Source: Anaeroplasmataceae bacterium
GTDB taxonomy: Bacteria > Bacillota_I > Bacilli_A > Acholeplasmatales > Anaeroplasmataceae
Direction of reading: 5' to 3'
Assembly (NCBI GenBank): GCA_029051735.1
Contig: JAIDKZ010000043.1
Location: 1-36,707, forward strand
Length of the DNA stretch: 36,707 nucleotides
Position numbers and translations under genes: made by a program. Shown here piece by piece: positions 1-3,124 of this stretch; positions within the stretch are counted from its first letter, which is position 1, and each line of letters starts with the position of its first letter. The notes beneath the pieces were generated by a model. The model did not search any database and was not told where the DNA came from. It saw nothing but the letters and a program-made list of their open reading frames with translations.

Positions 1-1119
1 TCCATAAGAATCAATTATTCTTTTTAATTTACAATGAAAAGAATCTTTTTCATTTTTAAAATATATAGTGATTAGATTTTCTTGTTCTTCTATTGTTATA
101 TCAAAGAAACTTGCATTTGTTTTTAAAGAAGGCAATATTAAATTCTTATCCAGTAATCCAAGATAGGAAACTGATAAAATACGCCCTCTAATGTCTCTTT
201 CAATATCAGAAAAAGTATGAATTTGATCCAAATAGACATTTTCAATATTTGCCTCAACATATAATACTCTCTTCGCACAATCTAAAAGTTTTTCATCTAA
301 GGATAGGAAACCACCTGGTATACAATATCGATTCATAAAAGGCGGGGTAGTTCTTTTTACTAAAAGAATACTAAAACTTTTTGTATTCTTTTTTCGATAG
401 TTTTCCTGCTTGATATCACTGATACTGAATAAAGCAATATCAGTTGTGATACTCATTTTTTCATAATCATCACTACTATAGTTTTTTAAAAAATCTTCAT
501 CTGATTCAAATTGTAGTGGTTCTTCTACATACCATTTAGAATATAATTTTTTCTTTTTTATATATTCTAATACGCATTCATCTAATAACGAGATAACAGA
601 TTCATAGTTTTCTTCATATAATAGCGTTCTTATTTGATTGGACTGAATATCTAATAAGTCTAAATCTAAAAGTAAAATCTCTCCTTTATAATTAGAATAT
701 TTTTCTAAAGTATCTGCAATATCAATACCTTTTCTTTGAATGATAAGAAGATTATAGGTATCTAAGATATATTCATATCTTTTCCACTTATCAAAACTTA
801 AAATGTTATCACTTCCCATAATAAAGTAAAGTGTATCTCCCTTATACATATTTTGAAGATAATCTAAGCTTCGATAAGTACAAATTAAATTATTTTTAAA
901 TTCATAATCACAGATGATAACTCTTGGCTGATTTTGAAACATCAGTTCAAGCATTTTTTTACGCTCTTCCCCTTTTAAGAGATTTTTTTTATTGTAAAAA
1001 TTACCTGTAGGCAATACAATGATTCGGTCAAATATGTTTTTTTCTAATAGTGATAGTACAATTTGCTTATGCATTAAATGGCAGGGATTAAAGGATCCTC
1101 CATAAACTCCAATTTTCAT
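1..1119 (-). CDS. nadD: NadD fused to NrtR-like Nudix domain (C-terminus cut by window)
   Basis: Nicotinate-nucleotide adenylyltransferase, which turns nicotinate mononucleotide and ATP into deamido-NAD. I translated this directly: 373 residues are visible and the frame runs off the window start. Residues 1-195 are NadD: GGSFNPCH with H14 and H17 (family HxGH, here HLMH), a MGSD-W stretch at 101-112, and QSNQIR at 159-164 where the family has SSTxIR. Residues about 205-373 match the NrtR/COG4111 Nudix type: FLKNYSSDDYE lead-in, KRTTPPF, IPGGF at 267-271, and LDQIHTFSDIERDIRGR at 297-313. The Nudix box is degenerate: G270, E276, R284 and E289 are kept, but the usual E at 285 and 288 is V and the G at 291 is N, so hydrolase activity is doubtful. 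In NrtR a winged helix would follow, which lies outside the window. The ATG overlaps the nadE TGA (ATGA), so the two are translationally coupled. NadD part is near certain; the function of the Nudix part is inferred. Confidence 0.9.
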   Translation of the reverse strand, partial: MKIGVYGGSFNPCHLMHKQIVLSLLEKNIFDRIIVLPTGNFYNKKNLLKGEERKKMLELMFQNQPRVIICDYEFKNNLICTYRSLDYLQNMYKGDTLYFIMGSDNILSFDKWKRYEYILDTYNLLIIQRKGIDIADTLEKYSNYKGEILLLDLDLLDIQSNQIRTLLYEENYESVISLLDECVLEYIKKKKLYSKWYVEEPLQFESDEDFLKNYSSDDYEKMSITTDIALFSISDIKQENYRKKNTKSFSILLVKRTTPPFMNRYCIPGGFLSLDEKLLDCAKRVLYVEANIENVYLDQIHTFSDIERDIRGRILSVSYLGLLDKNLILPSLKTNASFFDITIEEQENLITIYFKNEKDSFHCKLKRIIDSYG

Positions 1120-3026
1120 AGTTCTTCTAATTCCTTTAGATACATTTGATAGCTTACATCTGAACTCATTCTAAAATCTCCACGTGGAGATAAAGAAATC
1201 GAACCAACTTTTACACCATCTGGCATACAGCTCCGCTTAAATGCTTGTGTGAAAAATCGTTTAATAAAGATAGTCAAATATTTTTTTATATCTTCTTTGT
1301 TTATAGAAAACGTCTGTGTTGCTAAAAAATACAGTTTTTTAACAGAGGCTCCATACCGAATAAAATGATAAAGAAAGAAATCATGTAAGATATAAGGTCC
1401 AACACTTACCTCACTTTTTTGGGCAATATTCCCCTTCTCATCTAATGGTAAAAGTTCTGGTGAAATTGGAGTATCTAAAATATCTGATAAGGTTTCTTTA
1501 AAAATACCTTGTTTGGCATCATCTTTTATTTTTCGGATAAGTCTTGTAACTAAAGTTTTAGGGATGGATGCATTTACACTATAATTAGACATATGATCAC
1601 CGTTATAGGTAGCCCATCCTAAAGCAATCTCAGATAAATCTCCAGTACCTATTACAATACCTGATACCTGATTTGCAATATCAAAAAGAATCTGTGTTCT
1701 TTCTCTAGCCTGTGAATTTTCATAAGTAATATCATATGTATTTAAATCATGTCCAATATCTTTATAATGCTGTAAGCAAGCTTCCTTAATTGAGATTTCT
1801 TTTAAAGTTGCACCACTAGATTGAATTAACTGAATTGCATTTTGATAGGTTCTATTTGAGGTTCCAAAGCCTGGCATAGTTACTGCAATTAAAGATTTCA
1901 CATCCATGTTTAACACCTTAATTACACGTAATGCAATTAAAAACGCAAGCGTAGAATCTGCTCCACCACTAATTCCAATTACCATTTTTGTGAAATTTAA
2001 ATATTTAACTCGCTTTGCTAAAGCATAGGTTTGAATGTTTAAGATTTCTTCTAAAGTCTTATCATCTTCTGTTAAAAATGGAGTTTGACTATATGTCCGA
2101 CATAATGTATTTGATTTTAATGGTAAATTAAAGAACGTCGTTTGATACTCTATTTCTATTTTTCTTTGTTCATAACATCGATTTTTAATTCGATCTTGAT
2201 TAATTCTAAAAATATCAATATCTTGATAAATCATATCAGAATTGAATTGAAATCTTTCATTTTCTTTCACAACTCCGCTTGGTTCTGCAATCATTAAATG
2301 TCCAGAGAATACTAAATCTGTAGTAGATTCTGATAAACCAGCAGAGGCATAAACATAACCACAGATATTTGTGGCTGCTTGAACCTTTACTAAGTTTTTA
2401 CGATATTCATATTTTCCAACGATTTCATTTGAGCAACTCAAATTAAAAATCAAATTTGCACCTTTTAAGCATGCCAAATTAGATGGAGGGGTATTGACCC
2501 ATAAATCCTCACATAGCTCAATGGCATAACATAAATCATATCCATTTGCTTGATAAAGGAGTCGGTTTGAGATGGGCACCATTTCATTTAAAAAGAAGAT
2601 TTCATTTACCATTAACTGATCTGCACTTGAAAAGTAACGATACTCATAGAATTCTGAATAATTGGGTATAAAGGTTTTAGGAGTGATTCCTAATATCTTC
2701 CCATTTGAAAAACTGAATGCACAATTATATAAAGCTCCTTTGATTTTTAGTGGTGCTCCCACAATAAAAACAATCTCCTTATTTTGACTAAATTCCTTTA
2801 AATTTGCTAGTGCTTTTATTGTGTTTTCTAATAAATCTTTATTTAAAAACAAATCTTGACAAGTGTAACCGGTTAAGGATAGTTCTGGAAAACATAGGAT
2901 TTCTATTCCCTTTTCTATTGCCAATTCTACATTTTTTTTGATTTCTTCTACATTGTAAAAAACATCTGTGATTCTTAACTCATTTACGCATGCTCCCATA
3001 CGAACATAACCATATTTTTTTAACAT
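1116..3026 (-). CDS. nadE: Glutamine-dependent NAD+ synthetase
   Basis: Last step of NAD synthesis: amidates deamido-NAD with ammonia released from glutamine, using ATP. The 636-residue protein has the two-domain glutamine-dependent layout. The N-terminal nitrilase-type amidotransferase domain (about 10-290) shows FPELSLTGY (Glu) and YAIELCEDLW (nucleophile Cys). The C-terminal synthetase domain (about 330-630) shows the ATP-binding loop GISGGADS and GTGDLSEIALGW. Length is normal for this class. The start has a GGGTGA ribosome site 5 bases upstream and its own near-consensus promoter. The next gene, nadD, overlaps its stop codon, so both NAD steps are made from one message. Confidence 0.97.
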   Translation of the reverse strand: MLKKYGYVRMGACVNELRITDVFYNVEEIKKNVELAIEKGIEILCFPELSLTGYTCQDLFLNKDLLENTIKALANLKEFSQNKEIVFIVGAPLKIKGALYNCAFSFSNGKILGITPKTFIPNYSEFYEYRYFSSADQLMVNEIFFLNEMVPISNRLLYQANGYDLCYAIELCEDLWVNTPPSNLACLKGANLIFNLSCSNEIVGKYEYRKNLVKVQAATNICGYVYASAGLSESTTDLVFSGHLMIAEPSGVVKENERFQFNSDMIYQDIDIFRINQDRIKNRCYEQRKIEIEYQTTFFNLPLKSNTLCRTYSQTPFLTEDDKTLEEILNIQTYALAKRVKYLNFTKMVIGISGGADSTLAFLIALRVIKVLNMDVKSLIAVTMPGFGTSNRTYQNAIQLIQSSGATLKEISIKEACLQHYKDIGHDLNTYDITYENSQARERTQILFDIANQVSGIVIGTGDLSEIALGWATYNGDHMSNYSVNASIPKTLVTRLIRKIKDDAKQGIFKETLSDILDTPISPELLPLDEKGNIAQKSEVSVGPYILHDFFLYHFIRYGASVKKLYFLATQTFSINKEDIKKYLTIFIKRFFTQAFKRSCMPDGVKVGSISLSPRGDFRMSSDVSYQMYLKELEEL

Positions 3027-3050: not shown

Positions 3051-3078
3051 ATTATATCTCTTTTTTATTATTTGTCAA
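3051..3078 (-). promoter_or_regulatory. Promoter of nadE-nadD
   Basis: Minus-strand TTGACA (3078-3073), 16-base spacer, TATAAT (3056-3051). Both boxes are perfect sigma-A consensus. The leader to the nadE ATG is only about 20 bases, leaving no room for a riboswitch; an NrtR-type repressor would have to bind at the promoter itself. I see no clear long palindrome there. Confidence 0.85.
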
Positions 3079-3100
3079 TTTGTTATTATCATTCTGCTAA

Positions 3101-3124
3101 AAAGAAAAAAGCTGGAATCCAGCT
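3101..3124 (-). terminator. Terminator after rluD
   Basis: Minus strand reads AGCTGG-ATT-CCAGCT followed by TTTTTTCTTTTT. The hairpin begins inside the rluD stop codon and closes the T-box-led operon just before the nadE promoter. Confidence 0.85.

Follow-up and report, generated by a model that had tools for sequence, protein, structure and literature searches.

Regulators of the NrtR family (SoNrtR, 3gz5/3gz6, and the streptococcal and mycobacterial proteins) have a Nudix domain with a broken box, a C-terminal winged helix (PF21906), a context of NAD genes and an autoregulatory placement. Their effectors differ and include ADP-ribose, NAD and L-arabinose. The Nudix-wHTH regulators BtAraR, which responds to L-arabinose, and NadQ, which was solved with ATP (7q92), have no enzyme fused to them. 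Enterobacterial NadR is both a repressor of NAD genes and a pyridine-nucleotide adenylyltransferase (PMC12735969). Its HTH is N-terminal, and its other two domains are an NMN adenylyltransferase and a ribosylnicotinamide kinase. The NadM-Nudix proteins (NMN adenylyltransferase/ADP-ribose pyrophosphatase; 2qjo and 2r5w) have an adenylyltransferase followed by an active Nudix domain, with no winged helix.

The locus described here lies in a window of 36,707 bases, the whole stretch of DNA analysed, from an Anaeroplasmataceae bacterium. Its nadD::nrtR open reading frame (1..1119, minus strand) starts with an ATG at 1119–1117 and has no stop before base 1, the end of the contig (G000:C113), and it is cut there only. 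The start overlaps by 4 bases the stop of nadE (1116..3026, minus strand), the first gene of the operon, which encodes a glutamine-dependent NAD synthetase with a nitrilase and a synthetase part (PRK02628 at 792.8 bits, PF02540 and PF00795). Solved structures matching the window protein are NadD over residues 1–194 and AraR/NrtR-type Nudix proteins over residues ≈207–343. The original prediction of a NadD-NrtR fusion beside NadE is supported by the profile matches and by the relatives of the protein.

The fusion has the family features of NrtR listed above, and differs in that here the regulator is placed behind a NadD in one chain. It resembles NadR in outline, but has none of the three NadR domains (only NadD, Nudix and NrtR_WHD), and is a convergent analogue of NadR whose architecture is not homologous. 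With NadM-Nudix it shares the order of adenylyltransferase and Nudix domain, but that identity is ruled out by an adenylyltransferase of NadD type, a Nudix box that is broken and the presence of a winged helix. The C-terminal half shares its fold with BtAraR and NadQ. The original prediction knew of no NadD-NrtR fusion and we likewise found none in the literature searched, the founding NrtR papers (Rodionov 2008; Huang 2009), which might mention one, aside. With that reservation, the parts are known and the combination appears to be new.

The NadD (nicotinate mononucleotide adenylyltransferase) domain spans residues 1–195 (535..1119, minus strand). It had been read as complete, which is borne out by a TIGR00482 score of 123.7 bits against an equivalog cut-off of 112.45, and the relatives L063 and L073 reach 123.1 and 132.3 bits. 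PF01467 also matches this half. The nucleotidyltransferase motifs GGxFxPxHxxH and SSxxIR are kept (GGSFNPCHLMH with H17, and S160..I163-R164) and are largely invariant among the fused proteins, with slight departures: the first His is Asn in the protein of one genome (G008), and the window reads QSNQIR. An AlphaFold model of L063 gives a TM score (target) of about 0.8 against solved NadD. The full-length equivalog match and the motifs assign the N-terminal half to the NadD family, with a predicted activity.

The NrtR-type Nudix effector domain covers residues 206–373 (1..504, minus strand; PF00293, NF050029) and is cut by the contig end. PF00293 scores 27.6 bits over residues 247–329 (cut-off 21.1) and is above its cut-off in the relatives too. 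Residues 204–331 resemble the NrtR model NF050029, an equivalog for the ADPR-responsive repressor with a cut-off of 400. The scores of 64.6 bits for the window, 113.6 and 139.4 for fused proteins and 161.6 for the unfused L077 are all well below this value, and we therefore claim the NrtR family and not that equivalog. At the domain level the C-terminal half is assigned to the NrtR family by its profile matches.

The original prediction had left it to be checked whether residue 373 is followed by a winged helix. The window's own winged helix (about 100 further residues) falls past the contig end, and the missing C-terminus was not found on any other contig of the window's genome. It is present in each full-length relative whose C-terminus was read, and NrtR_WHD (PF21906) scores 60.6–66.4 bits against a cut-off of 27 in all four full-length relatives scanned. 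NadD, Nudix and PF21906 occur together in these four, so that all three suggested profiles are found above their cut-offs, the first two in the window itself and the third in the relatives. The AlphaFold model of L063 (mean pLDDT 80.8, pTM 0.59) matches AraR, the SoNrtR-DNA complex 3gz6 and NadD structures, and its placement of the two halves relative to each other is unreliable.

We give a probability of about two in three to the reading in which the fused NadD also acts as a repressor of its own operon, nadE-nadD::nrtR, and ADP-ribose is the signal that releases it. It would then be a 'trigger enzyme' made by gene fusion. The NadD half would convert nicotinate mononucleotide to deamido-NAD, the substrate of the NadE encoded just before it, and the C-terminal half would be a complete NrtR, a Nudix effector domain without catalytic residues followed by a winged helix. 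The protein would dimerise as NrtR does, bind a conserved block upstream of the nadE promoter and repress the operon, hence itself. With NAD breakdown, ADP-ribose would accumulate, fill the Nudix pocket and cause release of the DNA, and NadE and NadD would be made when NAD turnover is high.

The choice of effector is based on residues known from SoNrtR, in which Tyr10, Phe15, Arg41 and Arg98 contact ADP-ribose (PMC4666351). The corresponding positions hold Tyr, Tyr, Arg and Arg in every fused row of the alignment and are kept in the unfused rows too (Phe15 as Tyr or Phe). From these contacts we infer ADP-ribose as the effector, with NAD or ATP as serious alternatives. A different effector for the same fused repressor, be it NAD, ATP or a compound that NadD uses or makes, is a possibility that we take seriously while considering it unlikely. 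The Nudix-wHTH regulator NdnR responds to NAD, according to a citation in PMC4666351, and NadQ and AraR bind yet other ligands. The position of Lys76, an ADP contact in SoNrtR, is Glu or Asp in the fused rows, and that of Asn43 is variable. Against this stand the four kept contacts, of which Arg98 is the residue that is specifically missing in the arabinose-sensing AraR (PMC4666351).

The reading as an ADP-ribose-released repressor also needs a site on the DNA. The operon has a sigma-70-type promoter (3051..3078, minus strand) with TTGACA at 3073–3078, a 16-base spacer and TATAAT at 3051–3056, and this TTGACA-16-TATAAT arrangement is conserved across seven species. The promoter had been correctly recognised in the original prediction, which suggested a gel shift with it; the likely operator is the block just upstream and not the promoter itself. 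This candidate NrtR operator, CTTTTTAGCAGAATGATAATAA (3083..3104, minus strand), is a 22-bp block 4 bases upstream of the -35 box, with the core TTAGCA-N3-TGATAA at 3086–3100. It is followed further upstream by a sequence resembling the terminator hairpin of the upstream gene (AGCTGGATTCCAGCTTTTTT; 3105..3124, minus strand).

The block is identical in all seven species of the genus g1 that have sequence there, with flanks that are not alignable, while the fourfold-degenerate sites of nadE are only 27–42% identical (saturated) in the same seven species. In the sister genus a related block, TTATCA-N3-TGATAA, is found in the same position. The loose motif TTANCA-N3-TGATAA occurs at 8 places in the window's genome, and only 3083–3104 is intergenic. 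The seven other matches are all inside open reading frames, and a regulon beyond nadE based on this motif was discarded. The palindromic symmetry of the block in the window's genome is not better than that of shuffled sequence (197 of 200 shuffles were as good). A significant palindrome was therefore dropped as an argument, and the designation as a likely operator of the fusion is based on conservation and position. The block differs from the published streptococcal and mycobacterial NrtR motifs. NiaR (3H domain), considered as an alternative regulator, was absent from the 20 genomes searched. A protein bound at the block, upstream of the -35 box, could occlude the upstream part of the promoter, with activation the less likely outcome; repression is assumed because of the behaviour of the NrtR family.

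These observations also bear on the idea that the winged helix is no longer regulatory, and that the Nudix part only controls NadD allosterically or tethers NadD to NadE. The fusion does set a nucleotide-binding domain beside an enzyme, but the residues of the winged helix are strongly conserved among all full-length members and the promoter-proximal block is kept in both genera, and we regard this idea as improbable.

The Nudix box itself (residues 270–292; 244..312, minus strand) is degenerate compared with SoNrtR and with fused and unfused relatives, with RE changed to RV, EE to VE and G to N. Against the consensus GX5EX7REUXEEXGU the window reads G270..E276..R284-V285-L-Y-V288-E289-A-N291-I, and the substitutions V285, V288 and N291 had thus all been read correctly. 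Among the 17 fused proteins compared, Ile or Val always replaces the Glu of RE. The first Glu of EE has in each of them given way to Thr, Ser, Phe, Leu, Gln or Val, and all but one have Asn at the Gly of the box. As the catalytic Glu is gone in all fused rows, hydrolysis is unlikely. A bifunctional enzyme, with NadD and an active ADP-ribose pyrophosphatase in one chain as in NadM-Nudix, would fit the Nudix fold, the partly kept box and the presence of NadM-Nudix structures among the fold matches. We nevertheless consider it very improbable with both Glu residues lost in 17/17, the Gly replaced and a winged helix following. The operon of L080 moreover has a separate gene for a NudE-like hydrolase of ADP compounds, and a similar gene precedes nadE in L073. 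The outcome that the original prediction had weighed against its own reading, an active pyrophosphatase without a DNA-binding part, is thus not what the family shows.

The two halves are joined by a short linker (residues 196–205; 505..534, minus strand) that has no ATG, GTG or TTG start. A second product made from an internal start was considered and rejected, since residues 181 to 221 of the window gene include no start codon; an AGGA-like site, itself weak, is seen in one member only (L065). A single polypeptide is therefore expected and a separate NrtR is unlikely. The window frame stops at a contig edge, but the suspicion of an assembly or frameshift artefact that joined two genes is refuted by 15 separately assembled genomes in which the full-length frame runs through the same junction without interruption.

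The same junction is present in 18 further genomes of the order, which argues against an assembly accident, and the NadD-NrtR fusion is real and lineage-restricted. It is present in 19 of 160 genomes of the order, all from two genera (g1 and g6) of the Anaeroplasmataceae, namely 9 of the 11 g1 genomes and 10 g6 genomes. Fifteen of the 19 fusions are full length (470–477 residues) and stop-free, and four, including the one in the window, are cut by contig ends. One further fusion, L073, comes from a collection of named genomes; according to the named records the fusion group belongs to the Anaeroplasmataceae, Mollicutes/Bacilli of gut and rumen. Beyond this family the fusion did not turn up among 395 genomes sampled evenly from the class or 392 from the phylum, and unfused NrtR-like proteins are frequent there.

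In one g1 genome (G010) the contig ends inside the promoter, and in another (G003) the joint absence of the fusion, nadE and nadC suggests that the pathway was lost. The latter genome is 96% complete and has no match for NadD-NrtR, NadE, NadC, PncB or a NadM-type enzyme. In some g6 genomes without the fusion a NadM/NadR-type adenylyltransferase gene adjoins nadE or its neighbours (L193:3415-3939 in G025, L196:2172-2741 in G031 and L223:2677-3201 in G015). Such a gene in place of NadD-NrtR is a non-orthologous exchange.

In the trees of both halves the fused rows group together (NrtR, 100/100; NadD, 100/99), and the fusion is taken to have arisen once. More distant Bacilli and Clostridia have nadD and nrtR as separate genes within one NAD operon. 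The order is nadE-nadD-nrtR in L076, with 13 bases from nadD to nrtR, nadE-nadD-pncC-nrtR in L077 and L078, and nadE-nadD-nrtR-nadK in L080–L083; such unfused operons often include pncB, a PRPP synthase and a NudE-like hydrolase. As unfused relatives keep the two genes side by side, the fusion joined neighbouring genes. In the NadD tree the fused proteins fall with the operon-borne NadDs, whose genomes were sampled for their similarity to the fusion, and are separated (100/99) from NadDs in other genera of their own family and order. From this placement the family may have acquired the NAD module by transfer, a view we hold lightly.

No second NadD or NrtR and no nicotinate phosphoribosyltransferase was found in the window's genome, and nadB-nadC-nadA is present. 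De novo synthesis of NAD must therefore pass through the NadD of the fusion. In g6, nadA and nadB::nadC come after the fusion in the same operon. The latter gene is itself a fusion, of NadB (L-aspartate oxidase) to NadC, of 779–783 aa (L065:10348-12687 and equivalents).

The nadB-nadC-nadA promoter has a perfect palindrome, TTAATAGT-TTT-ACTATTAA, over its -35 region in six g1 species, upstream of nadB in L214, L216–L219 and L222 (G000:C127 and relatives). It is altered in G004 (L215) and was not found in G025 and G031, both without the fusion. NiaR is absent, and the NadD-NrtR fusion could be the regulator at this palindrome. Matches near nadB-nadC-nadA that resemble TTANCA-N3-TGATAA were set aside as noise at 3–4 mismatches, and the palindrome of that operon differs from the motif. 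A more speculative extension, which we consider doubtful, is that the two halves of the fusion interact. NaMN, NaAD or ATP in the NadD site might alter DNA binding, or ADP-ribose in the Nudix domain might alter NadD activity, and one chain would then adjust both flux and expression. In g1 the protein might possibly also repress nadB-nadC-nadA through the promoter palindrome and act as a master switch for de novo synthesis as a whole.

An NAD-precursor enzyme and a repressor of NAD genes thus appear to have been built into one protein twice from unrelated parts, as NadR and as NadD-NrtR. The fusion holds enzyme and repressor at a ratio of one, and would offer a clean test of how the level of a cofactor is set when an enzyme represses its own synthesis; to our knowledge few repressors have their ratio to an enzyme locked in this way. 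NadD, an essential enzyme, serves as a drug target in other bacteria, and here its gene is inseparable from its own regulator. The unfused side-by-side genes of the relatives offer a ready comparison.

Other arrangements of these genes were seen as well. In g5, a genus of the same family, a single frame of about 813 aa has NadD joined ahead of a glutamine-dependent NadE (L014:1-2061 and L015:1-2052, from G014 and G024), which is a different fusion. In L154 (G138:C18) a stand-alone NrtR ends a pncA-pncB-prs-nadK-nrtR operon, and a contig-edge fragment of the same genome (C67) matches the C-terminus of the fusion, so that this genome may carry two NrtRs. Finally, the fused operon at L073:4624-9413 contains pncB, a Nudix hydrolase gene, nadE, a PRPP-synthase-like gene and nadD::nrtR, a gene content consistent with recycling of ADP-ribose to PRPP.
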